From positions 1 through 38,912 of the forward strand of contig JAHBVV010000043.1 of assembly GCA_019637335.1 (NCBI GenBank): 38,912 nt of DNA, read 5' to 3'. The notes beneath the pieces are model-generated. The model saw only the letters and a list, made by a program, of their open reading frames with translations, was not told the origin of the DNA and did no database searches. The first letter of the stretch is position 1, and every line of letters starts with the position of its first letter. Source of the DNA: Candidatus Hydrogenedentota bacterium (GTDB lineage Bacteria; Hydrogenedentota; Hydrogenedentia; Hydrogenedentales; JAEUWI01). Shown one piece after another: positions 1 through 31,152 of this stretch. The translations under genes and the position numbers were made by a program.

Positions 1-188
1 ACCCGATTGCTTGAATCGGTGTACTTGCCGGTTTTCGGACGTATTGCCGTCATTGTTTGCAGAAAGGGGATGGCTTCTCTAACGATAGGCTCATTACACG
101 GGACGCCGGCAGCCATGCCTGCAATTGTTCAGCTTCTGTGACGAAGTCTGTGAAGAACGCCCGAGCGCTACGTACTTTGCGACCGAGA

Positions 189-1433
189 TCAAGGAAATTG
201 CGGGTCCTCGCCATTACCTGTCAGCCGCTTACGCACCGCCTCAATGATCTCACGGTGCTCCGGGCTCACCGGGCGCATGTATACATCGGCCATGGAAGAG
301 CTCGCCGAATGCCCAAGCCAGCGCTTCATATCGGAAATCGAACAGCCTTCGCGGGATCCAAACTCGGTGGCGCCAAGGTGGCGAAGAATGTAGAATCCAT
401 CGAGGGTTTCTTTGGTCTCGCCGATGCTGGTTCGGAGGCGGTTCCACCATTGGAGTACGGAGTCGGACCTGGTATGGACCAGGGGCTTGCCATTCCGGGT
501 CACGAACAGCGCTGAACCGCGTGGTCTCGGGTTCTCGTCAAGATATACTTTGATTGCACGCCAGACGCCGGGCGGTGTTGCGCCGTATCGGTCGATTCCG
601 GTCTTACTGCGGCGAAGGTCGTAGCCCTGTTCGTCGATGTCATCGACGCGTATTGCCGCCAGATCACCTTGGCCGAAGCCCAAACCGATCCCCATCCAGA
701 TCATGGCCCGGCCGCGGGCATCGGCCTTGTTGTGCAGTTTCTTGAGTTGCTCCAGGGTGGGGAGCTGCTTTTGTTTTGGCGCTCGGCCGGGCGAACGGTC
801 TACCGAATCCCAATTCCACGAGAGTTCCTGTTCGCCATATTCCTGCCGGCCGGCGCGATCCACAATCCGCTTAACGACCTGCATTTTGTGGCCGACCGTG
901 TTGACGGAAAAGCGCTTGGCCACCAGGTACTGATTGTAGGCTTCTACATCGAGGAGGGTCAGATCGGCCAGGCGCAGTCGGCCAACGGCGCCATCGCCGT
1001 GACGGTGGTTAAGAAACGCCAGGAAGTCCTTGATGTCCTTTTTCCGGTCGGCGGCAACCTGGGGGGAGATAGTGCCCGCAACCCGATTGCCCGGCTCCGC
1101 GCGCACACGGCCCTCCTCGTATCGGATGAGTCCGGAAGCGATGTGGAGAATAGAACCCGGCGCCGTGGCCACGTTTGCGGCAAGCTGGTCTTTTGTAGTG
1201 CGCTGGGCGCCATTCTTGCCCGTGAATGCCCACAACCGTTCTGAGTCATCACCGAGGTAGGCCGCGACCCAGGCATGGTACGCCCGTTCCGCTTCACCTT
1301 TGGAAACCATGCCAAAGCGCTGCTTCTTTGGCATTCCGGTCTCCCGGTCGCGGTAAGATACGTGCCACCCAATTCCACGCAATTTGGCATACTTGAGTTG
1401 AGGAACCCTGCGCTTCCGTTCTTGTGACGGCAC
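189..1433 (-). CDS. Tyrosine recombinase (phage-type integrase)
   Basis: A 414-aa site-specific recombinase that would cut and rejoin DNA at att sites. The C-terminal catalytic domain shows the RH box (R351-H352 in YILRHLGAT), the LGH box (H375) and the nucleophile Y385 (ADVYMRP). The N-terminal part (about 1-190) resembles a core-binding SAM-like domain. The usual first catalytic arginine (G-L-R before the x-L-x-x-L-R-W-x-D segment) is not apparent: the segment reads GLGFGQGDLAAIRVDDID. The residue before the RH box is also Tyr/Ile rather than His. Start is GTG with GGGAGG about 9 nt upstream. It reads away from the tRNA-Gly fragment at 1566-1616, the usual arrangement for an integrase at the end of its own element. 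I infer an integrative element extending left beyond the window. Family assignment is firm; activity is not certain. Confidence 0.9.
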   Translation of the reverse strand: MPSQERKRRVPQLKYAKLRGIGWHVSYRDRETGMPKKQRFGMVSKGEAERAYHAWVAAYLGDDSERLWAFTGKNGAQRTTKDQLAANVATAPGSILHIASGLIRYEEGRVRAEPGNRVAGTISPQVAADRKKDIKDFLAFLNHRHGDGAVGRLRLADLTLLDVEAYNQYLVAKRFSVNTVGHKMQVVKRIVDRAGRQEYGEQELSWNWDSVDRSPGRAPKQKQLPTLEQLKKLHNKADARGRAMIWMGIGLGFGQGDLAAIRVDDIDEQGYDLRRSKTGIDRYGATPPGVWRAIKVYLDENPRPRGSALFVTRNGKPLVHTRSDSVLQWWNRLRTSIGETKETLDGFYILRHLGATEFGSREGCSISDMKRWLGHSASSSMADVYMRPVSPEHREIIEAVRKRLTGNGEDPQFP

Positions 1434-1499
1434 GGTTCGGAGCCTCCCGTTTGGCTATGATTTCTTGGTGGATTTGAGGATTTAACAGCCAAGACTTTT

Positions 1500-1533
1500 G
1501 TAGTGTAAGGCATTCGGACCATGTAGTGCAAGG
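1500..1533. repeat. Direct repeat pair between integrase and att core
   Basis: GTAGTGTAAGG at 1500-1510 and GTAGTGCAAGG at 1523-1533 are direct repeats 23 bp apart, 10 of 11 identical. They lie between the integrase start and the tRNA fragment. This is where arm-type integrase or excisionase binding sites are found in many integrative elements; that role is inference. Confidence 0.5.
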
Positions 1534-1565
1534 TTGCGTTTTTATTGGTGTTTTTCGAAATTTTA

Positions 1566-1616
1566 GCGGGCTTCCCAAGCTGGATGTCGCGGGTTCGAAC
1601 CCCGTGTCCCGCTCCA
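1566..1616 (+). tRNA. tRNA-Gly(CCC) 3' fragment, putative attachment site
   Basis: The sequence carries a recognisable tRNA 3' half: anticodon loop TTCCCAA (CCC), a T-arm GCGGG-TTCGAAC-CCCGT, acceptor strand GTCCCGC, discriminator T and encoded CCA. No 5' acceptor strand or D-arm lies at the right distance upstream; only GCGGG directly before the anticodon loop could pair with the acceptor 3' strand. It is therefore a partial gene. Two readings fit: an attR left by integration into a tRNA-Gly gene (the adjacent integrase supports this), or a tRNA-Gly that lost its D-arm by internal deletion. In the first case, DNA left of 1566 is the element and DNA right of 1616 is chromosome. Confidence 0.7.
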
Positions 1617-1792
1617 TTTAAGTTCTTCCCTCCCAAGGCTTTACGCCTTTCCTTAGAATTCCTTGCACGAAAGTTCTTTGTGCGCTTCATTGGCTCTTGT
1701 CGTGCATACTCGCCGAGTCTGGCAAGGCGCGGTTTCGGGACGGCGCGGCGGGGGCCGACGGGCTGCTTCGGGGTGGCGCAGGTCGTCCGCTA

Positions 1793-3463
1793 TTATTCGG
1801 ACGGAACCCGTTCGGGGGGGCCTAATCGGGTGGATCGGATGACGGTGATGAGTTCTTCCGCGGCGGCGTCTTTGGTCAGGCAGCCTATCGCCCCCGCCTT
1901 TCGCATCGCTTCGGCCACTTCGGCTTCGTCGTGCATCGACAGCGATACGACGCTGATATCGGCGTCATGCTCGAGTATCTCTTTGGTCGCCTGGATTCCG
2001 GAGGTGTCTCCCAGGTTGACATCCATAATCACCACGTCGGGTCGGAGCGCGGCGGCGCGGCTGATGGCTTCCGGGCCGCTGCTGGCCTCGCCTATGACCG
2101 CTATGCCCGGCTCCCGTTCCAGCAAACCGGTCAGGGCGTCGCGCATAATGGTCTGGTCGTCGACAATAAGCACCTTGATGGAGGTGTCGTAGGCCGCGCC
2201 GGCATGGACGGCGGCACGCGCCTCCCCGTCCCGTTGCTGTACAAACCGTTTGAGTTTCCGGGAACGTGATGGGGGCGAAAGCACCGTGGCTCTCGTCCCT
2301 TTTCCGGGTGTGCTGTGGATCTGAAGCTCGCCCCCCAAATGGGTCAGGCGTTGTTGAACGCTGAAGAGGCCAAAGGTCCCGCGCTCCCCGCTGGGGCGTC
2401 CGAGAATGCTTGCATCGAACCCCGCCCCCTGGTCTTCCACGACAATTTCTATTCTGTCGTTGCCACTGGGGGCAATGGATATTGTGGCGGCGCCCGCGCC
2501 CGAGTGTTTGACGGCGTTGAACAGGAGTTCGCGGGCGCATTCGTAGAGCAGGTAGCGTTCTTCGTGGATGTCGGTTTCCGCCTGCTCGTCCCCGTTGATG
2601 TGCACGTCGAAACCGTGCTTCCGGCGAATTTCCTTGGCCAGCCAGTTCAGCCCGGCCACGAGGCCGGCCTCATCCAGGACGGGCGGGCTGAGTTCGACGG
2701 TAAGCGTCCGGGATGCCACAATGGCCTCCTTCAACGTGGACTCGATCTCTTTCAGCGATCGGATGTTACGTTCGTCCCGGCTTTCGAGGGCGCACACACT
2801 GAGCTGGAGGAGCGCCGACGCGATGAGTTGCTGGATATGATCGTGCAGGATGCGCGCGAGCCGCTTGCGCTCCCGCTGTTCGGCCTGCGTGAGCTCCATG
2901 GCCAGGGCTCTCAGCTGTATGACCCGTTCCTGCACCTCGCAGGTGCGCTCCGCCAGGCGCCGTTCCGCGGCGCGCCGCTCGGCGATTTCATCCTGCAAGG
3001 CCTTGTTCGTCCGGTACATCCCGACAAAGGCCGCCACTTTGGATTGGAGCACCGCCGGATTCAGGGGCTTGGTCAGATAGTCCACGGCGCCGACGCCATA
3101 CCCCAGAAGCGCATGGGTCTCTTCCTGGTAGTAGGCGCTCAGGAAGATAATCGGGAGGTGCTCCGTCTTCTTGCGCTGCTTGATAATCCTGGCCAGTTCG
3201 AGCCCGCCAACCTGGGGCATGCGGACGTCGAGCACCAACAGGGCAAACTCCTCCTTCATCGTCGCGAGAAGGGCCTCGTCCGCGTTGCGGGCGCGGACCA
3301 GGCGGTATCCGGGCGCGTCCAGAATGGCTTCCAGCGCGGTGAGATTTCGCTCGTCATCGTCGACGAGGAGAATGTTTGCCTGGAGCAGCCGGGGAGGGGG
3401 CTCGAAATCACCGGGCTCGCCGTCCCCCGCTGGCGGGAGCGTATCACGATAGTTGGAAATCAC
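1793..3463 (-). CDS. REC - HisKA_3-type histidine kinase - REC hybrid protein
   Basis: A 556-aa soluble signalling protein. An N-terminal receiver (about 30-145; D79, K132, TKP motif) is followed by a coiled coil, then a NarX/DesK-type dimerisation segment with phospho-acceptor H207 in ARILHDHIQQ. An HATPase domain follows (ELLFNAVKHSG, EDQGAGFD), and a C-terminal receiver has D481. The protein stops just after this second receiver, so there is no DNA-binding domain. Start is GTG with GAGGAG 9 nt upstream; that SD lies at the stop of the kinase gene 13 bp before it, so the two are co-transcribed. HisKA_3 kinases normally phosphorylate NarL/FixJ regulators, and one is encoded at 13326-14018. 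Pairing with it is a guess. No transmembrane segment is visible. Confidence 0.88.
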   Translation of the reverse strand: MISNYRDTLPPAGDGEPGDFEPPPRLLQANILLVDDDERNLTALEAILDAPGYRLVRARNADEALLATMKEEFALLVLDVRMPQVGGLELARIIKQRKKTEHLPIIFLSAYYQEETHALLGYGVGAVDYLTKPLNPAVLQSKVAAFVGMYRTNKALQDEIAERRAAERRLAERTCEVQERVIQLRALAMELTQAEQRERKRLARILHDHIQQLIASALLQLSVCALESRDERNIRSLKEIESTLKEAIVASRTLTVELSPPVLDEAGLVAGLNWLAKEIRRKHGFDVHINGDEQAETDIHEERYLLYECARELLFNAVKHSGAGAATISIAPSGNDRIEIVVEDQGAGFDASILGRPSGERGTFGLFSVQQRLTHLGGELQIHSTPGKGTRATVLSPPSRSRKLKRFVQQRDGEARAAVHAGAAYDTSIKVLIVDDQTIMRDALTGLLEREPGIAVIGEASSGPEAISRAAALRPDVVIMDVNLGDTSGIQATKEILEHDADISVVSLSMHDEAEVAEAMRKAGAIGCLTKDAAAEELITVIRSTRLGPPERVPSE

Positions 3464-3476
3464 AGCCGGGCGCTCC

Positions 3477-6400
3477 TCAGCGCTTGAGCCAAACGCGAAG
3501 CAAGGACAGGAGATGATCCACGTTGACGGGCTTGGCGATGTAGTCCGAAGCGCCGGCTTCCAGACATTTTTCGCGGTCCCCTTTCATGGCCTTGGCCGTC
3601 AGCGCGAGGATGGGCAGGCTGGCGTAGCGGGCGTCGGTTCGAATCTCCCGCATGGTTTCGAAGCCATCCATTTCCGGCATCATGATGTCGAGCAAGACCA
3701 CCTCGACGTGCGGTGTGCGGTGGAGCAGATCCATGGCCTGCCGCCCATCGGTTGCGGTGAGCACCTCCATGCCCTGGTTCTCGAGGACGCTGAGGAGCGC
3801 AAAGATGTTTCGCACGTCATCGTCGACGACCAGGGCGGTGCGCCCGCGCAGTGTTCTACGGGAGTCCTGCAGGCTTATCACGAGATCGCGCTTGGCCCGG
3901 GGCAGCTCGTTTACGTTTCGGTGCAGAAACAACGCGGTTTCATCGAAGAGCCGTTCCGGCGATCGCACATCCTTGAGCACGATGCTCTTGGCGACGGCGC
4001 GCAGCGCGGTTTCCTCCGACGCGGCCAGTTCTTTGCCCGTGAACACAATAATGGGCAGGTTGGCGTGTTCTTCGCGCTTCTGGATCCAATCGAGTAGTTC
4101 GAGACCACTCATATCGGGGAGGCGGAGGTCGAGAACGCAGCATTCGAACGCCCGGCTGGCGAGGAGCCGCATCGCATCCGCGCCGCTGGGGGCCACGGCA
4201 ATTTCGAGGTCGTCGTGGGCGAGCAATTCAACGATGCTCCGGCCCTCGATATGGTCATCCTCGACGACGAGAAGCCGCTTCGGCCACTGGGATACGAAGT
4301 CCTTCATGCGCTCCAGGGACGCCGAGATTTCCTGGGCCGTAGCGGGTTTTTGGAGGAAGGAAAATGCCCCATGCGCGATGCCGTCGTGGCGCCGGTCGTC
4401 GTCACCGGAAATGAGCAGAATGGGTATGTGCCGGGTGGACAGGTCGTTTTTCAACTGGTTCAGGAGCGTCCAGCCGAGCGTATCCGGCAGGAATATGTCC
4501 ATGGCGATAGCGGATGGCTGGTACTGCTGGACCAGGCGCAACCCCTGATCGCCGTTTGTCGCAATGAGTACTTTGAAGCCGGTTTCACGGGCGATCGCGT
4601 AAAGGAATTCAGCGTAATGCCGGTCGTCCTCTATCACCAGCACCGAAAGATCGCCCGTCCCGACCTCATCGCGATCGTCGGGGATTGGTTCGTCCGACTG
4701 CTTCTCCAACAATCGCGAGGCGGGCAGGGGCGCAACCTCCGCGACGGGTGGCGGGAGGATGTCCGATTCGGCGCCACGCAACTGGAGCGGCAGGAATAAT
4801 GTAAAGGTGCTGCCTTGCTCCGGGCTGCTCGCCACCGTGATCTCGCCGCCCAGCAGAACCGACTGTTCGCGGCATATCGCCAGCCCCAGCCCGGTCCCGC
4901 CATACTTTCGGCTTGTTCCGGCGTCCGCCTGCTGGAATGCCTCGAAGATGAGCTTCTGCTTTTCCGGGGGGATTCCAATCCCGGTGTCGGAAACGGTAAA
5001 GGCTACTACGCTGGCGGCCGCGTTGAGCGATTGATTGATGCTGTTCCAGCCTTCGTTTGCGATCCCGATCCGGAGGCACACCTCCCCCGTGGAGGTGAAC
5101 TTGAAGGCGTTGGACAGGAGGTTTTTGAGAATCTGCTGGACCCGCTTGGGGTCGGTAATCATTGTGGGCGGCAGTTCGGATTCAAGTTCAACGAGGAATT
5201 CGATATTCTTGGATTCGGCGACGTGGCGGAAGTCCCGTTCGGCGCCTTCCCGGATCACCGCAAAGGGCAGTTCCTCCAGTTCAATAGTCACGGTTCCCGA
5301 TTCGATCTTGGAGAGGTCGAGAATTTCGTTGATGAGGGAAAGGAGCTCCGAACCGGCGGAATACATGTTGCGGGCAAACTCGATCTGCTTGCTGTTGAGG
5401 TTGCCTTCGGAGTTTTCGGCAAGTTGCTGCCCGAGAATCAGTATCGAATTCAACGGTGTCCGTAATTCGTGGGACATATTGGCTAGGAATTCGGATTTGT
5501 ACTTTGACGTGAGCGCCAGCTCGGCCGCTTTCTCCTCCAGCGCGCGCCGGGCGAGCTCGACTTCCTCGTTTTTGCGTTCGACTTCGACGTTCTGGTCCGC
5601 CAGCAGGCGCGCTTTTTCTTCGAGCTCTTCGTTTGTCTGTTGCAACTCGCGTTTTTGCGCCTGGAGCTCCGAGGTCAGCTGCTGCGACTGCTGGAGCAGG
5701 TTTTCCGTCTGCATCGTGGCTTCGATGGTGTTAAATACCACACCGATGCTGAGAGTGAGCTGGTCGAGGAAGGTCAGGTGCGTCGCGGTAAACGACCCCA
5801 GTGACGCAAGCTCGATGACGGCCTTGGTTTCCCCTTCAAAGAGGGTCGGTATCACCACCACGCTTTCCGGGTACGCGCTGCCCAAACCGGAATGGATTTT
5901 GGTGTATTCCGAGGGTACATCGGTGAGTATGATGCGCTTCTTCTCAATCGCGCACTGGCCCGCGAGGCCCTTTCCCAGGCGAATTTGTTCGGGCTGGTCC
6001 TCAGGTTGCGCGTAGCCGGCAAGCAACCGCAGAAAGGGATCCGGGCCATCCACCATCTGGTAGATGACGCCCTGCTGCGCGTTGACAAGCGGCACCAGTT
6101 CCGACAGCAGCATCTGGCCCACGGTAAAAAGATCCCGCTGGCCCTGCAGCATCCCCGCAAACTTGGCCAGATTGGTCTTGAGCCAGTCCTGTTCCAGATT
6201 GCGCTCCGTGGTTACGCGGAGATTGTGGATCATGGTGTTGACGTTGTCTTTGAGCGTGGCCACTTCGCCGCTGGCCTCCACCTGAATGGATCGGGTGAGA
6301 TCGCCCTGGGTAACCGCCGTCGCCACTTCCGCGATTGCGCGCACCTGCGTGCTGAGATTGGCCGCCAGCAGGTTCACGTTGCCGGTGAGATCCTTCCAGG

Positions 6401-8972
6401 TGCCCGAGGCCCCGGGGACGTTGGCCTGGCCACCCAACCGCCCGTCCACGCCCACCTCGCGGGCAACGTTGGTTACCTGCTGGGCGAAGGTGGCCAGGGT
6501 GTCGGTCATATTGTTGATGGTTTCTGCCAGCGCCGCGATTTCGCCCTTGGCCTCCACCGTGAGTTTCTGTTCGAGGTTGCCCTCGGCCACGGCGGTCACC
6601 ACTTTTACAATACCGCGCACTTGATCCGTCAAATTGGTGGCCATGGAATTGACGTTGTCGGTGAGGTCCTTCCACGTGCCCGCCACGCCCGGCACCGTGG
6701 CCTGCCCGCCGAGCTTCCCGTCCGTGCCCACCTCGCGCGCGACGCGCGTGACTTCGGCCGCGAAGGCGTTGAGCTGGTCCACCATGGTGTTGATTGTGTT
6801 CTTGAGTTCGAGAATTTCGCCCTTGGCGTCGGCCACGATCTTGCGCGAGAGATCGCCCCGCGCCACCGCCGTCGTCACCTCGGCAATATTGCGCACCTGC
6901 GATGTGAGATTGGACGCCATCGAGTTGACGTTGTCGGTGAGATCCTTCCACGTGCCCGCCACGCCCGGCACTGTCGCCTGGCCCCCGAGCTTGCCATCCG
7001 TGCCCACTTCACGCGCAACGCGGGTCACTTCCGAGGCGAATCCGCGAAGCTGTTCCACCATGGTGTTAATGGTTTCCTTCAGCTGCAAGAGCTCCCCGCT
7101 CACATCCACCGTGATGGTCCGGGAGAGATCGCCCCGGGCCACGGCCGTCGTCACCTCCGCGATGTTGCGCACCTGGGCCGTGAGGTTGGAGGCCATGGAG
7201 TTCACGTTGTCCGTGAGGTCTTTCCAAGTTCCCGCCACCCCGGGCACATCGGCCTGGCCCCCGAGCTTGCCGTCCGTGCCCACTTCGCGCGCGACACGGC
7301 TCACCTCGGAGGCGAACGCATTCAACTGATCGACCATCGTGTTGATGGTCTCTTTCAGCTCAAGGATTTCCCCCTTGGCGTCCGCGGTAATTGTCCGGGA
7401 GAGGTCGCCGCGCGCCACGGCGGTCGTGACCTCGGCGATATTGCGCACCTGGGAGGTGAGATTCGACGCCATGGAGTTCACATTATCCGTAAGATCCTTC
7501 CACGTGCCCGCCACGCCCTGGACCTCGGCCTGCCCGCCGAGTTTTCCGTCGGTCCCCACCTCGCGCGCCACCCGGCTCACCTCGGAGGCAAAAGCGTTCA
7601 ACTGGTCGACCATCGTATTGATCGTATCTTTCAGTTCGAGGATCTCGCCCTTGGCGTCCGCGGTGATCTTGCGGGACAGGTCGCCGCGCGCCACGGCCGT
7701 CGTTACCTCGGCAATATTGCGCACCTGGGCGGTGAGGTTGGAGGCCATGGAATTCACGTTATCCGTGAGATCCTTCCACGTGCCCGCCACGCCCGGCACA
7801 TCGGCCTGTCCCCCAAGACGGCCTTCCGTGCCCACCTCGCGCGCCACGCGGCTTACCTCGAAGGCGAATGCGCGAAGCTGCTCCACCATCGTGTTGATGG
7901 TGTCCTTGAGCTCCAGCAGTTCGCCGCGAACATCCACCGTGATCTTGCGGGAGAGGTCGCCGCGCGCCACGGCGATGGTGACCTCCGTGATGTTGCGCAC
8001 CTGGGTCGTGAGGTTGGCCGCCATGAGGTTTACATTGTCGGTCAGGTCTTTCCAGGTTCCGGCCGCGCCCGGAACCACCGCCTGGCCGCCCAGGTTGCCG
8101 TCCGTTCCGACTTCGCGCGCGACGCGGGTGACCTCCGAGGCGAACGAGCGGAGCTGGTCCACCATGCCGTTCATCGCCTCCTTCTGCTGGAGGATTTCCC
8201 CGCGCACGTCGACCGTGATCTTCTTCGACAGATCGCCATTGGCGACCGCGATGGTGACTTCGGCGATGTTGCGCACCTGGGCAGTGAGGTTGGAGGCCAT
8301 CGAGTTAACGCTTTCCGTCAACTCCTTCCAAACGCCGCTCACCCCTTCAACCTGCGCCTGGCCGCCGAGGCGCCCGTCCGTGCCCACTTCCCGCGCCACC
8401 CGCGTCACCTCCGACGTGAACACGGCCAGCTGGTTCATCATGGTGCTCACCAATCTTGCGGATCGCAGAAACTCGCCCTCCAGCGGGCGACCGTCCACTT
8501 CCAGCGACATCGTCTGGCTCAGGTCCCCGCGGGCGACGGCTCCAACGGCGCGGGTGATCTCCATCGTGGGCCAGACCAGATCATCGATGAGCGCGTTGAT
8601 GTCGTCCACGCCATCCGCCCAGCTGCCGACCGCGCCCGGGACGCTAATCCGCTGGGACAAGCGGCCCTGTTTGCCCACCGCGTGGCTGATTCGCGAAAAC
8701 TCGCTTCCGCGCCGTTCCACCACCATCATGACGTCGTTCAGGGCATCCGCGATCTTCCCGTAGGTTCCTGTCCACTCATTGGGAAGCCGCCGCGTAAAGT
8801 CGCCGGACCGCAGCGCGAGGACAACGTCCAGAATCTGATCGATCGGATCCTTGGCTTCCGGGGCGGGCCCGTTATCCGCGGCGTCGCGCCCCTTGCCGTC
8901 GGCGCCGTGCTCACGTCGCCTGGACGGTCTCAACGGCTTCGTGGAACGATTCGCGGTGGATTTGATGTCCAT
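3477..8972 (-). CDS. Multi-HAMP hybrid histidine kinase with GAF and three receivers
   Basis: A very large (1831 aa) cytosolic hybrid kinase without signal peptide or membrane segment. Residues about 40-915 are a tandem HAMP array, including eight 92-aa units each carrying an AREVG-x-DG-x-LGGQA core. Then come a GAF domain (about 925-1085), a coiled coil, HisKA with H1168 ([11 protein letters not shown]), HATPase (N box around [11 protein letters not shown]1 DTGIGIP, G2 GTGLGLAI) and three receivers with D1492, D1615 and D1762. There is no Hpt domain. The architecture is like bacterial relatives of the fungal Nik1/Os-1 group III kinases, which sense osmotic or envelope stress through poly-HAMP arrays. 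It lies 61 bp downstream of the sigma-54 activator gene and 13 bp upstream of the REC-kinase-REC gene. Start ATG has AGGAAGGGA upstream. Partner and signal are inferred, not shown. Confidence 0.93.
6241..8448 (-). repeat. Eight 276-bp in-frame tandem repeats (poly-HAMP array)
   Basis: The same codon landmark in the AREVG core recurs at 8380, 8104, 7828, 7552, 7276, 7000, 6724 and 6448, exactly 276 bp each time with no indel. The central units are the most alike in DNA and protein, and the outer ones more diverged. That is the pattern expected of unequal exchange or recent homogenisation. Unit limits are arbitrary within the register. A ninth, degenerate unit precedes the first. Confidence 0.92.
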
Positions 8973-21888: not shown

Positions 21889-22834
21889 AGCAGTCCTGGG
21901 CGGAGACGCCCGGCAATGGTTGTCCCGGTCCGTGATGGATCTTGTGCTTCTGGCAATTTGCATCGTGCTCGCGTTCACCGCCCCGAACTTCCTGTCGCTG
22001 GAGAACTTCCTCAATATCCTGCGCGCGGTCTCCATGATGGGCCTCATCGCCTTCGGCATGACCATGGTCATCATCTCCAAGGAGATCGACCTGAGCGTCG
22101 GTTCGGCCGTGGCCCTCTCCGGCTGCATCGCCGCCAGACTGATGCAGATGGGGGTCCCGATTCCCCTCGCCATGGTCATTACCCTCGTTACCGGCGCGCT
22201 GATCGGCGCCTTCACGGGATTCATACGTGTCAAGTTCGAGGTGCCCTCCTTCATCACCACACTCGCGCTCTTCACCGCCGAACGCGGCGTCGCCCTGATG
22301 ATCACAAATGGCTTCCCCATCGCGATTACCTCCGAGTGGTACGCCTTCCTGGGCGGCGGATACGTTTTTGGTATTCCGTTCCCCGCCATCATATTCATCA
22401 TCGCCTTCGCGGCCATCCATTTCCTCATGAAGTACACCGTCTTCGGCGGCGAGGTCTACGCCGTGGGCGGAAACGACGAAGCGGCGCGCCTCTCCGGCAT
22501 CAACGTGGGCCGGGTGCGCATTCTCGTCTTCTCGATCACCGGCGGGCTTGCGGCGCTCAGCGGCCTGCTGATGTCCTCCCGGATCGCAAGCGGATCGCCG
22601 ACCCTCGCCATGGGGCTGGAGCTCGATGTGATCGCCGCGGTCATCATCGGCGGAACCAGCTTCACCGGCGGCATCGGCACCGTCCGGGGCACCCTGATCG
22701 GCGTGCTGTTCATCGGCGTCATCACCAACGGCATGACGCTGCTCAATCTGGATGTCTACTTTCAATACATCGTGCGCGGTGGCCTGATCCTGGCCGCCGT
22801 GCTGGCAAACCGGCTGCAGGAGGTCAAGAAATGA
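21881..22834 (+). CDS. Sugar ABC transporter permease (RbsC type)
   Basis: A 317-aa inner-membrane permease with about eight to ten hydrophobic segments. It carries the family signature around VGGNDEAARLSGINVGR (the coupling region facing the ATPase) and the glycine-rich GLELDVIAAVIIGGTSFTGGIGT typical of BPD_transp_2 permeases, which usually act as homodimers. ATG at 21881 overlaps the ATPase stop (ATGCTTAA). Its own stop overlaps the next start as ATGA. The importer is thus complete: one binding lipoprotein, one double ATPase and one permease. Confidence 0.96.
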   Translation: MLKAVLGGDARQWLSRSVMDLVLLAICIVLAFTAPNFLSLENFLNILRAVSMMGLIAFGMTMVIISKEIDLSVGSAVALSGCIAARLMQMGVPIPLAMVITLVTGALIGAFTGFIRVKFEVPSFITTLALFTAERGVALMITNGFPIAITSEWYAFLGGGYVFGIPFPAIIFIIAFAAIHFLMKYTVFGGEVYAVGGNDEAARLSGINVGRVRILVFSITGGLAALSGLLMSSRIASGSPTLAMGLELDVIAAVIIGGTSFTGGIGTVRGTLIGVLFIGVITNGMTLLNLDVYFQYIVRGGLILAAVLANRLQEVKK

Positions 22835-24408
22835 ACGCAAGAATCGCAATGTTGCTCGCCCTGGCGGCGGTCTGGGCGGGAGCCATGCCCGCCGCGGGCG
22901 CCCAGGAAACGTCCAGTTCCTGGGACAAGCCGCCGATGATCGGCATGTACGTGCACCAGCACTGGTCCTACAACCACCCGTATGCCGCGCGCACGTGGAA
23001 CATGGACGACTGGAAAGGCTACCTGGACGGCCTGAAGAGAATCGGCTTCAACACCGTGCTGATCTGGCCGGTGCTGGAGACCATGCCCGATCCATTGACG
23101 CCGAGCGACGAGGAGAACCTCGAAAAAATGGCGGCGGTCGTCGATTTCGCGCACTCGCAGGACATGCGGGTCCTCATCGCGCTCTGCCCCAATGTCATCG
23201 CGAAGAACGACGAGGCCAGCAAGTACACCTTCGTCGAGCGCCCCTTCTTCTACACGGACCAGCGCGTCAACCCGGCGGACGCCATCGCAATGGGCAAGAT
23301 GCTCGAATGGCGCAAAAAGATCTTCACGCCCCTGAAGAAGATTGACGGCGTCCTGATCATCGACAGCGATCCCGGCGGCTACCCGGGCTCGGACAATGTC
23401 GAGTTCGTTTCGCTGCTGAACTCCCACCGTACCATGTTCAACGAGCTGAACCCGGATATCGAGCTGTACTACTGGATCCACGCGGGCTGGGAAGCCTACT
23501 GCCGCTTCTACGAGACCGCCGAATTCGCCATGGGGGAAACCGACGAGATCCAGGAGGCCATCTCGCTGCTGGCCAAGGTCAATCCCGAACCCTGGGGGCT
23601 CGCAAGCGGCCGCGGGCCCGGTGTCGCCGATTTTATCGGCAGGCCGGACCGTGTCCTCAACTACCAGTACGGCGCGATCGAAGGGGAGCCCAGTTTCCCC
23701 ATGCTCAATTTCGGCACCGAGCGGGCGTACGTCGTAGGCAAGAACAAGGGTGTGCGCGGCACCCTTGGCAATTCGCAGACCCACTGCCTGCAACTCCCCA
23801 ACGCCTTCCTGTTCGCCCGCGGCGCGAATGACCTGCCCATGCCCGAGCGTGGCGACTACGTGACCTTTGCGGAGCGCCTGCTGCCCGGACACGGTGAAAC
23901 CATCGTCGCCGGGTGGGAAGCGGTGAACCAGATCGACCCCGCCATCATTGAGGCGGCGGAGGCCAACGTGACCGCCATGCTGAACACCGAGCTGAAGCCG
24001 GGCGACCTCGAAGGGCTCCTGTTCGGCGATCCCGCGCGTTTCGTGAAGGACCTGGGCCACGTCCTGCGATTCCGCGCCACGCTGGAACGATTCCGCGCCG
24101 CCGCGTTGGAAGGCGCGGACAAAGCCGTCGTGGCGGAAACCATGGCGGCCTTCGTCAAGGAAGCATCCGACTGGCAACAGGTCCATGACTACAAAAACAA
24201 CTGGTACATGCCGCGCATGGAAGAGGCGCTGGTGAAGGTCGATCCGGCGGTGTACGGCCCCTTCTTCGTGCGCGATCAGAACGCCTACAAGGGCGAGGGC
24301 GACACCCCCTTTGAGCAGGTGCAGAACGCCTACAAGAAGGTGGAAACCTTCACGCCGCGCTTGATCGAAGCCATGAAGAAGACGGTCGCGGAACTGATGT
24401 CACTTTAG
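22831..24408 (+). CDS. Exported TIM-barrel protein, short paralogue of the DP(G/A)G group
   Basis: A 525-aa protein with a signal peptide (cleavage near AAGAQ), then a probable glycosidase-like barrel: MIGMYVHQHWSYN, WKGYLDGLKRIGFNTVLIWP, VDFAHSQDMRVLIALCPNV. The segment IDGVLIIDSDPGGYPG aligns by eye with VDGYIVWFYDPGGCFC in the protein at 31153 and VDGYVVWFYDPAGCFC in the one at 29179. The following NPDIELYYWIHAGWE matches their (A)-x-x-QAVLWPTW region. It lacks their N-terminal domain and Cys motif. Start overlaps the permease stop (ATGA), tying it tightly to the importer. Probably hydrolyses or binds a glycan; reaction unknown. Confidence 0.7.
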   Translation: MNARIAMLLALAAVWAGAMPAAGAQETSSSWDKPPMIGMYVHQHWSYNHPYAARTWNMDDWKGYLDGLKRIGFNTVLIWPVLETMPDPLTPSDEENLEKMAAVVDFAHSQDMRVLIALCPNVIAKNDEASKYTFVERPFFYTDQRVNPADAIAMGKMLEWRKKIFTPLKKIDGVLIIDSDPGGYPGSDNVEFVSLLNSHRTMFNELNPDIELYYWIHAGWEAYCRFYETAEFAMGETDEIQEAISLLAKVNPEPWGLASGRGPGVADFIGRPDRVLNYQYGAIEGEPSFPMLNFGTERAYVVGKNKGVRGTLGNSQTHCLQLPNAFLFARGANDLPMPERGDYVTFAERLLPGHGETIVAGWEAVNQIDPAIIEAAEANVTAMLNTELKPGDLEGLLFGDPARFVKDLGHVLRFRATLERFRAAALEGADKAVVAETMAAFVKEASDWQQVHDYKNNWYMPRMEEALVKVDPAVYGPFFVRDQNAYKGEGDTPFEQVQNAYKKVETFTPRLIEAMKKTVAELMSL

Positions 24409-24461
24409 CCGAACGATGTACAGTGGCCAAACTAGAGCGACTTGCAAAATAAAGGCGACGC

Positions 24462-24630
24462 GCAACTATGGAGTGCCGGCAGATTTCGCCGCTGGCGCAA
24501 GACAGCTATAGAGCGCCGGCGGCCCGCCGGCAAATTGCGCCCCCGGCGCAAGCCAGCTACGGAGCGCCAAGGCGCGCCGGCAAATTGCGCCCCCGGCGCA
24601 AGACAACTATGGAGCGCCAAGGCGCGCCAC
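24462..24630 (+). repeat. Tandem 50-bp repeats in intergenic DNA
   Basis: Units starting GGCGCAAG(A/C)CA(A/G)CTA occur at 24494, 24545 and 24595 (periods 51 and 50), with a shorter degenerate copy from 24462. Each unit holds GGAGCGCC followed by GC-rich inverted stretches (GGCGCGCCGGC, AATTGCGCC). The array fills most of the 269-bp gap between two operon genes. It shares the GGAGCGCCGGC core with the MITE at 34839-35066. It is not a CRISPR: there are no unique spacers. Confidence 0.8.
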
Positions 24631-24677
24631 CCGGGCGCTGAAGGCGGCCGGACGCGAATGAGAAAGGCTCTGAAAGA

Positions 24678-26078
24678 ATGAACCGCAGGGAATTTCACAA
24701 GACATGCGCCCTCGGCGCGGCTTCCGCCATGCTGGGCCAGCGCGCCGTTGCCGCGGCGGGGGAGAATCCCCGGAAGCCCTTCAAGCTTCGGGGCGTCTAC
24801 TTTCACGACGGGTTCACCGTCGATCCACAACATCACGCGCCGCTCCACTGGGGCCGCGAGGAGTGGCTGCGCCAGATTCGGTGGCTGCACGCGTGCGGCG
24901 TGAACGCGGTCGAGTTCGCCACCATGCTCGAATTCAATCGCATCCCGCAGACCGAAATGGAGCGCGAGAAAATCGAGGACCGCAGGCTCGTGTTGGAGCT
25001 GGCCCACTCGCTCGGTCTGGAATTCGGTTACATCCTCACCAATACGGTCGTCAGCACCGTGCCCGAGGGCGAGGAGCCCGGCCACCAGCTGCTCAACCGC
25101 GCGGTCCAGCTCTGCCCGCAAGATCCCGGAAATTTTGAGAAGACCATCGCCCTCCAGGAATGGTACATGGACACCTACAAGGAGGCCGATTTCTTCGACG
25201 AGTTCGCCGCCGACTGGGGCGGGTGCCATTGCGGCCAGTGCGCGGTTCCCGACTTCATGCGCTATGTGGATACCCTCGCCAAAAAACTCCAGGCGAAGAA
25301 TCCAGATGCGCGGATGTACGCCAACACCTGGTGCATCGCCTACTGGGGCCCCGGCCCCGAGGAGCAGGGCTGGGAGAAGGTTTTCGACAACGAGATCCGC
25401 GGATCGCGCGAGGTGATCGAACTGCTCGACACCATGCCGAAAAACGTGCACCTCGCCCTGCCGTGCCACCACCTCTACCGCCCGCTCGTCTACACCACCA
25501 AGGGCGGCAAGGCCAACACCCCGGTCTTTCCGACCCGCGAGGACATCAAGAAAGTTGAGGCGATGGGCCGGGGCGTCCTGGCGTGGCCCCATTTTGTGAT
25601 GGACGACGACACCGGCCGCGCGCCGCAGTGGGGGCTGGTCCACAGCGAGGTGCGCTACATCCGCGATTTGCTCCAGCGACTCCAGGAAACCGGCATCGAT
25701 CAGGTCATGGGTAACCTCTACTTGCCCTATTTGCAACTGTCGAACACCTACGCTTACGGCCGCCTGCTGGACAATCCCGATACGGAGCCCATGGTCATCC
25801 TTCAGGACTTCGCGAAGCTCGTCGCGCATCGGGACGACGCCGATCAACTCGCGGAGGTGCTCGCCTGGCTGGAAAACCACAGCTACTGGGAAGAGCAGAT
25901 GCCCAAGGATGGCCGCCTGCCCGAATTGCCCTGTTCCCTGGATAAGGCGGGCGCCCTCAACGCCATCGCCGCCATCCGCCCCAATGCGTCCCCGGAGATG
26001 CCCGTGCCCTACGCCCCCGACGCGTGGTTCAAGGATGTGGCCCGCTCCATCGAAAAAATGACCTGGGTGACAGAATAA
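24678..26078 (+). CDS. Tat-exported TIM-barrel protein with CxCxxC motif
   Basis: A 466-aa protein with a twin-arginine signal (NRREFHK followed by a hydrophobic stretch and AVAAA). This suggests folding or cofactor binding before export. The body looks like a TIM barrel: FKLRGVYFHDGFTVD, WLRQIRWLHACGVNAVEFATML, LELAHSLGLEFGYILT. C183, C185 and C188 form CHCGQC, which may bind a metal and recurs as CFCDQC and CFCDVC in the products of 29179 and 31153. Acidic residues DFFDEFAADWGG precede it. The order barrel strand, acidic patch, Cys cluster resembles DUF4838 and GH20-like proteins, but assignment is tentative. ATG follows the tandem repeat array. Confidence 0.72.
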   Translation: MNRREFHKTCALGAASAMLGQRAVAAAGENPRKPFKLRGVYFHDGFTVDPQHHAPLHWGREEWLRQIRWLHACGVNAVEFATMLEFNRIPQTEMEREKIEDRRLVLELAHSLGLEFGYILTNTVVSTVPEGEEPGHQLLNRAVQLCPQDPGNFEKTIALQEWYMDTYKEADFFDEFAADWGGCHCGQCAVPDFMRYVDTLAKKLQAKNPDARMYANTWCIAYWGPGPEEQGWEKVFDNEIRGSREVIELLDTMPKNVHLALPCHHLYRPLVYTTKGGKANTPVFPTREDIKKVEAMGRGVLAWPHFVMDDDTGRAPQWGLVHSEVRYIRDLLQRLQETGIDQVMGNLYLPYLQLSNTYAYGRLLDNPDTEPMVILQDFAKLVAHRDDADQLAEVLAWLENHSYWEEQMPKDGRLPELPCSLDKAGALNAIAAIRPNASPEMPVPYAPDAWFKDVARSIEKMTWVTE

Positions 26079-26146
26079 ACCGAGATTCACGTTGGCGTTA
26101 TGTCGTCTGCTGGCCGCCATCGGGACGCTACTGAATCAGCGCAATT

Positions 26147-26181
26147 GTGCCACGCGATCCGGCAACGCCGGTTCGTGTGCC
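26147..26181 (+). repeat. Hairpin repeat, variant core A
   Basis: GTGCCACGCGATC, core CGGC-AAC-GCCG, then GTTCGTGTGCC. The flanks are identical to those of the copies at 38580-38615 and 38774-38809, while the core differs but stays self-complementary. The whole folds as a stem (CACGCGA with TCGTGTG). It lies in the leader before the gene starting at 26230. Confidence 0.7.
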
Positions 26182-26229
26182 CGTTGGAAGACTTACCCAA
26201 CCATGGTTTTTGAAAGCCTGGAGTTGTCT

Positions 26230-29154
26230 ATGAAGCCGTGGAGATTCACCTTTTTCCTCGCCCAGGTCCTCCTGATCACGCTGGCCTGTGGAAGCGCTAT
26301 CGCCGCCCCGCAAACGCCCGTGCAGGTCGTCCTGCCCGATGACCTCGCGGCGGCGCTCGCCGCCGATCTGCCCCCAAACCTCCAGCCCGTGCCCCGCTCC
26401 GGACTGGACGCGGAAGCGCTCGTGGCGCACGCGGCGGCCGGCGGCGCCATCGTCTGGATCGGTTCGCCCGACGGGCTGCCGCCCGAGTTATGGATCCAGA
26501 GTTTCGAACTGTCACCGGAACCCCTGAATATCTCCCAGGCCGCCGCCGCGCCCGTGGACCTGCCCGCGGCCTTTCAAATGATTGCCCGCGCGGAATCGGC
26601 CTTCCTCTACAGCGCAAACGAATTCCCCAAGCACAACATCGACGAGGAAATTCGGGCCGATTTCCTGCCCATCCTGGCGGCGCGGGATCGTTTCGGCGAA
26701 GTCATCGGTTATCCCGGCGTGCTGGTGAGCCATGTCGCGCCGTCGCTCGTGAAGAACCGTTTCGATGGCTGCCAGGCGTATTTCTTCTTCTTTGAAGACC
26801 CCCTCGCCGCCCGGCACGAGAATCGGTGGCGGGAACTCCTCGCCGCCATCGCCCTGCGCCACGAAAGCGGGCTACAAGTGGAGTATGTCGAAACAAACTA
26901 CGCTTCCTACCGCCCCGGCGAACGCGCCCAGATTCGCGCGCGCATTCGCAACTTCCGAAGCGCGGGCGCGTCCCTCAACGTGCGCTTTTCCATCGCCGCG
27001 CCCGGCGATTCGGCGTGGCGCACGCTCGCCACGGTCCGGCGCGTCGCCGGGGGCGACAGCGCAACGGAGGCCGTGGCGGATTTCCCCGTCAGCGGCCCCG
27101 ATGGATTGCACCGGATCCGCGTCGAAGTCCTGCAGGATGTCGCCTTGGCCGAAAAGACCGCCGTGCTCGGCGCCCCCGAAGTCATTGAGGCCCGCGAAAC
27201 CGCCATCGTGGTGCTCTCGGAGGGATGGTCCACGCCCGAACTCCTCACCGTAGACGGCCTGAATTTCGCCATCGCCGGAGAACCGGGTTTCTACGCCGGC
27301 ACGCATTACTACCCGTCGAATGTCTGGTGGGAGTGGGCCTGGCGCGATTTCCGGCCCGCGCTGGCCGACCGCGATTTCCGCGGCATGCGCCAGGCGGGCA
27401 ACCGCATCGTGCGCGTCTGGGCCGACCCCACGCTGGACGAAATATCCCTGCGCGCCAAGGACGCCGCCGTGTGGATCGCCGCATCCCACGGCATCGTGCT
27501 GGATGTGTGCGTGTTCAATCAGTGGGTGCGCGACTTGAGCTATCCCGGCGAGGACGGCGCCCAGGTCGACTTCGAATTTCGCCACCCGAAGGACTTCAAC
27601 CTCTACAGCTTTTCGCTGCGCAACTTCGATCACCAGCGCAACTACATCCAGACACTCGCCCGCCGCTGGCCGCGCGCCGGCAACGTGCTCTACAACCTGG
27701 CGAACGAAACCTACGTAAAAGATCCCGACGCGTCGCAGATGGATCCCGAGGTCCGCGCGTGGGACGAGGCGGCGTTGCCCTCCGGCGAGCGGCGCGACTC
27801 CCTGCTGTTTCAGCGCTGGGGCGAGGAACTCGAACAGGCCGTGCGGGATGCCGGCGGCGCGCAGATGGTCTTCCCGGGCTACATGTTCTCCCTGAGCATA
27901 GGCGGCGACGCCTTTCTGGGCAACGCCCTGGCGCCCTTCATGACCTGGCACGGCTACTTCTCACCGGAGGGCATTGGCCAGACTGTGCATTATTTTGATT
28001 CGATTTCTTCCGATCGCCCGCTCCTGCTGGAAGAATTTGGCAACCTGGGTTGGAACAACGCCGTCCACTATGACGCCGCTATGCACTATGCCCTCGCCGC
28101 GGGCGCCGGCGCAGCCATGTCCTACGAATGGGGCATCAGCTGGATGGCCCGGGAATCCTCCTTCGTGCCCCTGCCCATGCGCGACGCGCTGGAAGGCGCC
28201 GACCCGCGCTGGTTCCAGCCCATTGTGGACTACGCGCGCGAAAACGCCAGCGAGTCGGGGGTGGGCATCGCGCCGTGGCCGAGCGGATGGGGCTACGGCT
28301 CCATATACCATGGCACGCCCTTTCCCGCGGAAGCCGCCGAGGCCGTCCAACGCATGGCCCGGTTCGGCGATCGCTTCGCGCGCGCCAGCCAACCGGAATC
28401 CGTGTATGCCGTCATTCCAGAGGCGAACACCGTCACACTCAACACCGCCATGCCGATGTTCAAGCACCTGTGGGCGCGCGGCGTGCGCTTCGGCGTCTGG
28501 CAGGAGGTCCACCTCGATGCCCTTCCCGATTCCGCGAAGTGGGCGATTTTGCCCGCGCCGCTCTCCACGGACCAGGCCCAGGCCGCATTGCGGGAGCGCC
28601 AGGCGATGGGCCTCGTGGTGCTTGATGGCGCGGCCCTGACCGATGAAGCCATGACCCAGCTCCCCGCCGTGGACTTCGCGCCCGCGGACGGAATCAACAT
28701 GCTCGTCCGGCATACCGTACACGGCCCCTTGTACGCATTCCTGAGCGAACGAATCGATGTGGATCTAACGGCCCGGATCGATGGGAGGGAGGTAACCGCG
28801 GAGCTGGACAACTACGTGCTCGTGCAGTCGTCGCCCGGGGGCCCGACCCTGATCGAAGCATCGGGCACAGTGGCTGTGGACGGTGATCCCGTCTTTTCGG
28901 CGGAAGGAGGCCGGGTCATCGCCGCTTCGGTGGACGGATCGCCGCTGCGTTCCGCCGCACGATGGAAAGTCGCTGTCAGCAGCGCCCCGACTGTGCTCGA
29001 CGTTCCGCGCGCCATCGCCGGGGTGGAGGTGCTGCGCAACGATAGCGGCCAGACCGCCCGCGTGGAAATCGCGCCCGGCGCTACCCAGATCACCATCGAC
29101 CGCGAAATGGCCCGGTACCCCGTATTGATCAAATTCCAGGCGCCCGCCCAATGA
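26230..29154 (+). CDS. Large exported clan GH-A-like glycosidase candidate
   Basis: A 974-aa protein with a signal peptide (cleavage near GSAIA). Residues about 25-210 show no family I recognise. Next is a beta-sandwich-like segment (VEYVETNYASYRPGERAQIRA), then a catalytic-type barrel: FAIAGEPGFYAGTHYYPSN, QAGNRIVRVWADP, YNLANE with E493 at the acid/base position, and LLLEEFGN with E602 (or E601) at the nucleophile position. A beta-rich C-terminal part follows. The N-E and E-F-G sites fit GH5, GH2 and related clan A enzymes. ATG at 26230 is chosen for GGAG 6 nt upstream and the signal peptide; an upstream in-frame ATG at 26203 has no better site. It lies 24 bp before the next gene. Confidence 0.8.
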   Translation: MKPWRFTFFLAQVLLITLACGSAIAAPQTPVQVVLPDDLAAALAADLPPNLQPVPRSGLDAEALVAHAAAGGAIVWIGSPDGLPPELWIQSFELSPEPLNISQAAAAPVDLPAAFQMIARAESAFLYSANEFPKHNIDEEIRADFLPILAARDRFGEVIGYPGVLVSHVAPSLVKNRFDGCQAYFFFFEDPLAARHENRWRELLAAIALRHESGLQVEYVETNYASYRPGERAQIRARIRNFRSAGASLNVRFSIAAPGDSAWRTLATVRRVAGGDSATEAVADFPVSGPDGLHRIRVEVLQDVALAEKTAVLGAPEVIEARETAIVVLSEGWSTPELLTVDGLNFAIAGEPGFYAGTHYYPSNVWWEWAWRDFRPALADRDFRGMRQAGNRIVRVWADPTLDEISLRAKDAAVWIAASHGIVLDVCVFNQWVRDLSYPGEDGAQVDFEFRHPKDFNLYSFSLRNFDHQRNYIQTLARRWPRAGNVLYNLANETYVKDPDASQMDPEVRAWDEAALPSGERRDSLLFQRWGEELEQAVRDAGGAQMVFPGYMFSLSIGGDAFLGNALAPFMTWHGYFSPEGIGQTVHYFDSISSDRPLLLEEFGNLGWNNAVHYDAAMHYALAAGAGAAMSYEWGISWMARESSFVPLPMRDALEGADPRWFQPIVDYARENASESGVGIAPWPSGWGYGSIYHGTPFPAEAAEAVQRMARFGDRFARASQPESVYAVIPEANTVTLNTAMPMFKHLWARGVRFGVWQEVHLDALPDSAKWAILPAPLSTDQAQAALRERQAMGLVVLDGAALTDEAMTQLPAVDFAPADGINMLVRHTVHGPLYAFLSERIDVDLTARIDGREVTAELDNYVLVQSSPGGPTLIEASGTVAVDGDPVFSAEGGRVIAASVDGSPLRSAARWKVAVSSAPTVLDVPRAIAGVEVLRNDSGQTARVEIAPGATQITIDREMARYPVLIKFQAPAQ

Positions 29155-29178
29155 CCCCGCCGGCCCTGGACGCAACAC

Positions 29179-31122
29179 ATGCAGGTGTATAGTTCAATGA
29201 AACCCGTTCGATTGGCTGCCAATCTCATCCTGCTCCTCGCGATTCTGGCCGCAACTTCGCCTGCCCCGGCGGAGTTTGTACCCCTGGAAGGCATGGCAAT
29301 CCAGGGCCCGATCACGCCTTCGGAAGGGGAACTGCTCGCGGTGCGGGCGTTCAATATGCGCCTGGCCCAATTCACTGGAACGCCGGCTCCAGTGCTCTGG
29401 GGCGCCGCCAACAACCCGCCCGCCACGCTGCTCGTGGGTACGCGTGTAAGCCAGCCCGACGCCTTCGCGGAGTTCGCGGGAGCGCTCCCCGACGTCCCAA
29501 ATAGCGACGCGGCGGATCAGTCGTATCGTATCGCGTCCACAGAATCCCGCATTGTCGCATTGGGGGCCGGCGCATCGACCTCGGGTCGATCCTCCCTCGG
29601 GCTTGGCTACGCCCTGGGTGAGTTGCTCCGCCGCCTCGACAAGCGCGACGGCGTCTGGGGTTTTGAGCTTCCGGACTACCCCATCACCGGCGCGCCCGCG
29701 ATGCCAAACCGAACGCTCTACCTGAACAGCGGCGCGGGCCGGCCCAAAGGCGTTTCCCTGGAACATCTTTCCGAGGCCGAATTGACGGGCTATGTCGATT
29801 TCCTCATCGAATCGGGCATTTCTCGCTTGTCCTTCTGGCAGGTCCACCCCGGTTACCTCTATCCGGGGAATGCCGAAGCGCAGCGGCCTGGCAACGTACG
29901 CATTCACCAGGTGCTGCGCACGATCTTCGACTACGCGCGCCGCCGGGGCCTCGAGGTCTACCACCAGTTGACCCCGGCCTATATCGACCCGAGCCCGCTC
30001 GGCGATCCGGATCGCTATCGCGGCGTCGGCTGGTACACCGAGAAGGCGGGCCACGGCGGCATCTGCTGGAGCCAACGCGAGGTCCGCGAACTCGCACAGA
30101 AAATGGTGCGCCTCGAGATGGAGTACTTCTCGCCGGTCGACGGCTACGTCGTGTGGTTCTATGATCCGGCGGGCTGCTTCTGCGATCAGTGCAAGCCCAA
30201 CCAGGCCGGCGTTCTCTACGATCAGTATCAGAGCATCGCCGCGCGCGCGAACGACATCAGTCCCAGAGCCCGCATGCAGGCCGTACTCTGGCCCACATGG
30301 ATTTTCCCGCAATACGAGCACGAGGGCATTCCCTTCAATGCGGAGGAGCGCGACGCCTTCGTGAAGGACTTCCTCGGGCGGCTTGCGGCGGCAAACCCGC
30401 CGCGCACGGTCTCCATCATGGACAGTTGCGAAGGCGAGTACACGAATATCTTCAACGGGCTCGTGGACCCCACCGTTTTCCAGCGCAACGGGTTTATCTA
30501 CAGCCTGCTCGGCTATCCGGGCGAAACCGCGAATATCTTCATGCCGTACCGATTCGGGCAGCAGGGCAGCGTGCTGGGGAAGGCGCGCGATGCCGGCCTG
30601 GAGGAGTCCACCCTCTATGATCACTATGCGCCGGTGAGCCAGCCGGTCGTGCATGGCTTCGCGCGCATCCTGTATGACAAGACGATCGACGGCCCCGCCG
30701 CCCTTGCGTCGTATGCCGCCACCGTGGCCAAGGCCGATGCGCGTGCGCCGTTCACCGCCATGCTGGAGGCCCTCGGCGCCATGGACGACGCCACGACCTA
30801 TGAGGAGCGCGAGACGCACCTGGATGCCGCGGACGCCGCCTGGCGGATGGCCGCCGAAAGCCCCGATCTGCACGTGTCCCGCGAATGGATGGACGGCTAC
30901 CTGCGCGCGCAGCGCCACTACCTGGCCATGGCGCGCACAACCACACCCGAATCCTTCCTCCAGGCCTATGAGGCGTTCAAGGCCGGCATCGGCGCCATTC
31001 CCATGTACGAGGATTTCGCGGCGCGCTCCCTCACGCCGAAGGTTGTCGCGGAAATGCAGGTCGGTACTTACTGGCGCCACCCCTGTGGCGACGCGACATC
31101 GAAGGGCGTTCCCACGCATTAG
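29179..31122 (+). CDS. Exported TIM-barrel protein, paralogue A (CxCxxC)
   Basis: A 647-aa protein. After the signal peptide (cleavage near SPAPA), residues about 35-175 look like the alpha/beta N-terminal domain of GH20- or GH67-type enzymes (AVRAFNMRLAQFTG, LLVGTRV, LGLGYALGELLRRLD). A barrel follows: MPNRTLYLNSG, YVDFLIESGISRLSFWQ, YHQLTPAYIDP, MVRLEMEYFSPVDGYVVWFYDPAGCFCDQC (split here only in description) with C333, C335 and C338. A helical C-terminal region ends near LTPKVVAEMQ. Closely related along its full length to the next gene product, so a tandem duplication. Start may be 29179 or the in-frame ATG at 29197. Substrate unknown; DG-x5-YDP is the best candidate for an active-site strand. 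Confidence 0.75.
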   Translation: MQVYSSMKPVRLAANLILLLAILAATSPAPAEFVPLEGMAIQGPITPSEGELLAVRAFNMRLAQFTGTPAPVLWGAANNPPATLLVGTRVSQPDAFAEFAGALPDVPNSDAADQSYRIASTESRIVALGAGASTSGRSSLGLGYALGELLRRLDKRDGVWGFELPDYPITGAPAMPNRTLYLNSGAGRPKGVSLEHLSEAELTGYVDFLIESGISRLSFWQVHPGYLYPGNAEAQRPGNVRIHQVLRTIFDYARRRGLEVYHQLTPAYIDPSPLGDPDRYRGVGWYTEKAGHGGICWSQREVRELAQKMVRLEMEYFSPVDGYVVWFYDPAGCFCDQCKPNQAGVLYDQYQSIAARANDISPRARMQAVLWPTWIFPQYEHEGIPFNAEERDAFVKDFLGRLAAANPPRTVSIMDSCEGEYTNIFNGLVDPTVFQRNGFIYSLLGYPGETANIFMPYRFGQQGSVLGKARDAGLEESTLYDHYAPVSQPVVHGFARILYDKTIDGPAALASYAATVAKADARAPFTAMLEALGAMDDATTYEERETHLDAADAAWRMAAESPDLHVSREWMDGYLRAQRHYLAMARTTTPESFLQAYEAFKAGIGAIPMYEDFAARSLTPKVVAEMQVGTYWRHPCGDATSKGVPTH

Positions 31123-31152
31123 CAACCCACCCACATCCGCGGAGGAATGAAC

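Follow-up and report, generated by a model that had tools for sequence, protein, structure and literature searches.

The window analysed here, a stretch of 38,912 nt, is the entire contig C43 of a 7.16-Mb assembly in 55 contigs (G000). Near its left end lies a gene for a tyrosine-recombinase integrase of 414 amino acids (189..1433, minus strand), followed by a displaced 3' part of a tRNA-Gly(CCC) gene (1570..1616, plus strand), which corresponds to positions 30-76 of the 76-nt gene, CCA included. This tRNA part forms the beginning of an 86-bp direct repeat (1570..1655, plus strand). Between the start of the integrase ORF and the repeat to its right are 137 bp, and the ORF is read in the direction leading away from the repeat, an orientation that the sequence-only reading had stated, with a distance of 130 bp. 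That reading had also pointed out two 11-bp direct repeats between the gene and the fragment, and we located them as two putative integrase sites of the P arm: site 1, TTGTAGTGTAA (1498..1508, plus strand), and site 2, ATGTAGTGCAA (1521..1531, plus strand), 23 bp from site 1.

Using ARAGORN, we found no complete tRNA in the window, and an intact tRNA-Gly gene with the anticodon CCC on another contig of the same assembly, C46. The 3' part of this gene is identical to the window fragment, and the identity continues 39 bp beyond the tRNA 3' end, so that 1570-1655 is an exact copy of the repeat on the reverse strand of C46. Outside the repeat, the 30 bp left of 1570 have 3 of 30 positions in common with the intact gene locus, and the 30 bp right of 1655 have 15 of 30 in common with the C46 locus. 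One genome holds both an intact gene and a fragment of that same gene, that is, a split tRNA. The fragment had been described before as a tRNA-Gly(CCC) 3' part without its 5' half, and the intact tRNA-Gly with an identical 3' half, for which a search had been proposed, is the gene on C46.

The pattern WTGTAGTGYAA has five matches in the whole assembly, namely two in the window, two on C46, and one on C16; both C46 matches lie within 290 bp of the 3' end of the intact tRNA. The reversed pattern, used as a control, gave six matches in the genome. Four of the five matches border one or the other part of the split tRNA, a placement that shows the 11-bp sites not to be due to chance. They are on the element side of both junctions, left of the core in the window and right of the core on C46. 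With the P arm and the integrase gene in the window and the P' arm on C46, the two junctions are assigned to attR and attL, respectively. The earlier proposal of an attR with the chromosome to the right and the element to the left gains support from the position of the P arm and the integrase gene left of the core as well as from the layout of a sibling island (see below). Accordingly placed, the right end of the integrated element is 1..1569, with the integrase gene and the P-arm sites, and its remainder lies beyond the contig start; 1656..38912 is, by the att topology, the chromosomal right flank, where Pfam matches indicate two-component genes, an ABC transporter, a sulfatase, and others.

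These results argue strongly that an element was inserted in tRNA-Gly(CCC) by a tyrosine integrase and that its integrase-proximal junction, attR, occupies window 1-1655; we regard this as very probable. The element attP would have carried the tRNA 3' part plus 39 bp beyond it. The integrase presumably took the inverted repeat of the anticodon arm as its core and would have exchanged strands at the anticodon stem-loop, where we place the crossover; the same protein presumably also bound the TGYACTACAW sites of both arms, P and P'. Insertion would then have rebuilt a working tRNA at attL on C46 and left the original 3' part in the window. By inference, the integrase would be active, and the element may be mobile at present. 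Counted against the island are the separate contigs, the distance of only about 1 kb between the element end on C46 and chromosomal genes, the absence of an MOBF (TrwC) relaxase, and an integrase that is without Arg I and does not reach the Phage_integrase model. Anticodon-centred tRNA islands of the Islander survey (PMC4383910) are alike in having an intact tRNA, a 3' fragment, and a tyrosine integrase at the fragment end. The Islander signature also has gene and fragment oriented alike on a single replicon at a distance of 2-200 kb, whereas the element studied here is on two contigs, C43 and C46, and has an integrase outside Pfam Phage_integrase. We conclude that the genomic island boundary is of an ordinary kind and well supported, and that the integrase family is mildly unusual. 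In a lineage that has been little studied, the junction marks one chromosomal boundary exactly.

The integrase gene is inside the island, at one end of it. Its product consists of N-terminal arm-binding-like, core-binding, and catalytic domains and matched a PHROG integrase family at 3e-24. No Pfam family matched at 1e-3; Phage_integrase (PF00589) was not reached, and under a loose limit there were solely weak SAM-like N-terminal models below the cut-off. A sequence profile search of solved structures, with the PDB families in the VIA list as its scope, matched no recombinase. We modelled the protein with AlphaFold2 from a 7-row alignment (pLDDT 77, pTM 0.48) and compared the model with structures, which gave Z scores of 16.8 for XerA, 15.2 for the Tn1549 integrase, and 13.9 for Cre; lambda integrase was matched with Z 13.7 over residues 10-395. 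The model thus predicts the core-binding and catalytic fold of tyrosine recombinases. A search of 400 bp next to the window integrase gave no excisionase-like HTH_17 gene. A small HTH_17 protein is kept with the integrase family at three other loci (L152:12218-12532, L040:7267-7509, L039:7252-7467), and it is a likely excisionase.

To find relatives, we scanned one genome per species from 84,980 species and obtained six integrases of 50-61% identity, all hosted by metagenome-assembled genomes (MAGs) titled Planctomycetota, Phycisphaerae, Phycisphaerales, or Pirellulales. No relative was found in viral contigs or in the plasmids searched, and phages gave two distant matches of 24% identity. In literature on recombinases and defence islands of Planctomycetes, on anticodon-site islands, and on Hydrogenedentota, we found no paper on this integrase family.

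Pairwise alignments with other recombinases from the relatives' genomes place Gly254 opposite Arg I for three of them (L044, L045, L049), and the fourth (L046) is gapped there. The canonical Arg I is absent, with Gly in its place, in all seven family members, and Arg262 is invariant across the family. The member L043 is cut by a contig end before the Tyr347 region; in each of the six that reach it, the first His of HxxR is replaced by Tyr347, and LRH, LGH, and Tyr occur at the usual spacing, which we take to be the second Arg, the LGH His, and the nucleophilic Tyr of tyrosine recombinases. Arg262 may do the job of Arg I in the window integrase. According to a paper on such enzymes, Arg I can be missing from IntCTnDOT integrases, which then employ an Arg further downstream; in IntDes, Arg I is shifted and Tyr stands for the first His (PMC8138268). 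With its Gly254 for Arg I and Tyr347 for His, the window integrase resembles these arm-binding-domain recombinases with an altered pentad, as they are described there. In that paper, IntDes, known to us by description, is reported in Desulfovibrio only (PMC8138268), unlike the window integrase with its relatives in MAGs of Planctomycetota, Phycisphaerae/-ales, and Pirellulales. If the altered site is functional, the window integrase would be a further tyrosine recombinase without the canonical first Arg, beside IntCTnDOT and IntDes.

Upstream of each of the seven integrase genes, the adjoining 120 bp contain two or three sites of the [CT]ACT[AG]CA type, and a site pair is present in each case, the first two sites being spaced by 23 bp in six and by 22 bp in one. 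The tRNA genes beside these integrases vary: a tRNA-Gly(GCC) 3' fragment at L038, an intact tRNA-Gly(TCC) with its 5' end towards the integrase gene at both L039 and L040, and a tRNA-Arg(ACG) at L041, with no tRNA called at L042 and L043. The genomes of L039 and L040 contain tRNA 5' halves together with arm-type sites elsewhere (G062:C21 24382; G061:C1 651601 and 2443720). Since the tRNA at the integrase end is complete in L039 and L040, the displaced part is the 5' half there and the 3' half in the window and L038. A near-symmetric anticodon arm used as the core would allow either half to be displaced. The 5'-fragment configuration is rare but known, because Islander counts 5' fragments in 159 of 3919 islands and 3' fragments in 3760, and also gives 2083 anticodon-centred sites (PMC4383910). 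It is an evenly balanced call whether these integrases form a clade marked by a rebuilt active site (Gly for Arg I, Tyr for the first His, and an invariant downstream Arg, Arg262 in the window integrase, substituting), an arm code of TGYACTACAW pairs 23 bp apart, and a near-symmetric anticodon arm that lets either tRNA half be displaced. The integrase family, the 23-bp arm pairs, and the split tRNA together provide a signature for related islands.

In addition, a tRNA 5' half with arm-type sites and about 0.9 kb of adjoining sequence occurs twice, in nearly identical form (92-94%), at distant places of one contig (L163, G061:C1:2443720; L162, G061:C1:651601). One copy has about 1 kb inserted. 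On G062:C21 (L164/L166), a tRNA 5' half with P'-type sites is at 24.4 kb and the integrase end at 182.2 kb; their orientation would place the element outside the intervening 158 kb, an odd arrangement, as on C46.

The genome of L038 (G060) contains a complete sibling island of about 37 kb on one contig (L152/L153, G060:C68 about 114.8-151.8 kb). An intact tRNA-Gly, with P' sites at its end of the island, lies about 37 kb from the L038 fragment on this contig, and both are on one strand. The fragment shares 82% identity with the intact gene over 103 bp. This island shows the layout of a whole member. Its genes include a TrwC relaxase, a TrwB/TraG-type coupling protein, ParA, and ArdC, together with defence genes, by which it is IME-like. 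The defence genes are Hachiman HamA and HamB, a short-Argonaute pair, and an HmaA/HmaB/HmaC-like set (helicase/methylase/ATPase), in which HmaC is a weak match (1.9e-6), so that one sibling island is packed with anti-phage systems. Except for the integrase and the small HTH_17 gene, the 29 tested genes of this island have almost no counterpart in the compared stretches of the other loci. The relaxase search of G000 covered the TrwC/MOBF family (PF08751) and gave 0 matches; on this basis we do not assign the window's own element, whose body is unplaced, to the IMEs.

We also looked at the tRNA-Gly(CCC) site in 59 further genomes, drawn from the genus, the family, and the order. Internal 3' fragments of tRNA-Gly(CCC) starting from position 26-30 were present in at least four of them (G013, G016, G018, G047), leaving out weaker or contig-end fragments in G009, G040, G052, and G056, and the site is therefore a recurrent target. 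G047 has its intact gene 19.9 kb from the fragment on one contig (L082/L083, G047:C68:11623-31579); between them are a different integrase (Pfam Phage_integrase), which overlaps the tRNA, and a type I restriction system. No close relative of the window integrase occurs among the 59 genomes; five of them gave weak partial matches of 27-45% identity.

The attL and attR are on different contigs, and we compared the C46 side with relatives. Left of the C46 tRNA, a TPP-dependent enzyme is encoded that is 75-81% identical at the same tRNA in G001, G002, and G005; further genes on this side are conserved in G001 and G002, and in G005 it is the enzyme that is conserved. This flank is conserved at the same tRNA, and thus is the chromosomal side of attL, as expected. 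On the other side, a conserved block begins at C46rc 7617, about 1-1.3 kb past the repeat; G001 and G002 share its synteny, and G005 and G008 do so in part. It contains what we take to be menaquinone (mqn) genes of the futalosine type. Its MqnE has one close copy in G000; of 11 relatives searched in addition to G000, six gave a match, which was weak in one case. Such a conserved block near P' means that the element is broken or very large, that two chromosomal sites were joined, or that the assembly is in error. The window begins 188 bp past the integrase gene, and in a search for end-overlap links the best match of its positions 1-188 elsewhere in G000 had an E value of 0.096. A circular excised element was considered as an origin of the window and rejected, as the contig ends do not overlap. 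Window 1617-3463 has no DNA match in any of the nine relatives searched, and the right flanks of the tRNA in G001, G002, and G005 have no syntenic-block match to C46 or C43, so no empty site could be shown.

For the C46 side, the best-placed explanation, to which we give an even chance, is that the ends are real and the element is broken: a deletion, inversion, or translocation just inside the left end would have brought P' next to the C46 mqn block, with the body of the element now elsewhere or lost. This accords with the start of the conserved block at C46rc 7617, 1.3 kb past the repeat, with the single close copy of MqnE in G000, and with MqnE orthologues that lie off the tRNA-Gly contig in G001, G002, and G005. 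On the other hand, the left flank of the block has no match at 1e-15 in G001, G002, G005, and G008, so that the original neighbour of the mqn block cannot be named, and an assembly error gives the same picture. A single intact, very large island, running from C46 through unplaced contigs to window position 1 with the mqn block as cargo, seems fairly unlikely. By the att topology, all sequence right of the repeat on C46 would belong to the element, the mqn block has a patchy distribution (G003, from within the genus, gave no MqnE match), and the C46 GC3 is 0.65-0.80 right of the tRNA versus 0.78-0.88 left of it; however, MqnE identity tracks kinship (81 and 75% in the genus, 69 and 66% in the family, 66% in the order) and looks vertical. 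Recombination by the integrase between the tRNA attB and an attP that was already a fixed part of the chromosome, which would have rearranged the chromosome without the insertion of a separate element, is improbable. P' is within about 1.3 kb of conserved C46 genes and one such step would explain both contigs, but the sibling in G060 is an ordinary inserted island and there is no direct sign of an inversion. As for the fragment itself, the sequence-only reading had noted GCGGG directly before the anticodon loop, which is indeed present at 1566-1570, with solely its final G inside the repeat, and could pair with the acceptor 3' strand. It would be the old acceptor strand if a D-arm deletion had caused the decay of the tRNA gene. 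We reject this alternative as having next to no chance, given that the identity with C46 is exact over 86 bp including the downstream flank and ends at one point, that the arm sites and integrase gene adjoin the fragment immediately, and that the other displaced fragments read begin near the same tRNA position without GCGGG in common.

Right of the repeat, the window contains a run of large proteins at 21916-33078 (830, 562, 1020, 647, and 643 aa) with no Pfam match at 1e-3. It also encodes, on the minus strand at 3477-8972, a hybrid kinase of 1831 aa with eight HAMP repeats, GAF, HisKA, and ATPase domains, and three receiver domains.
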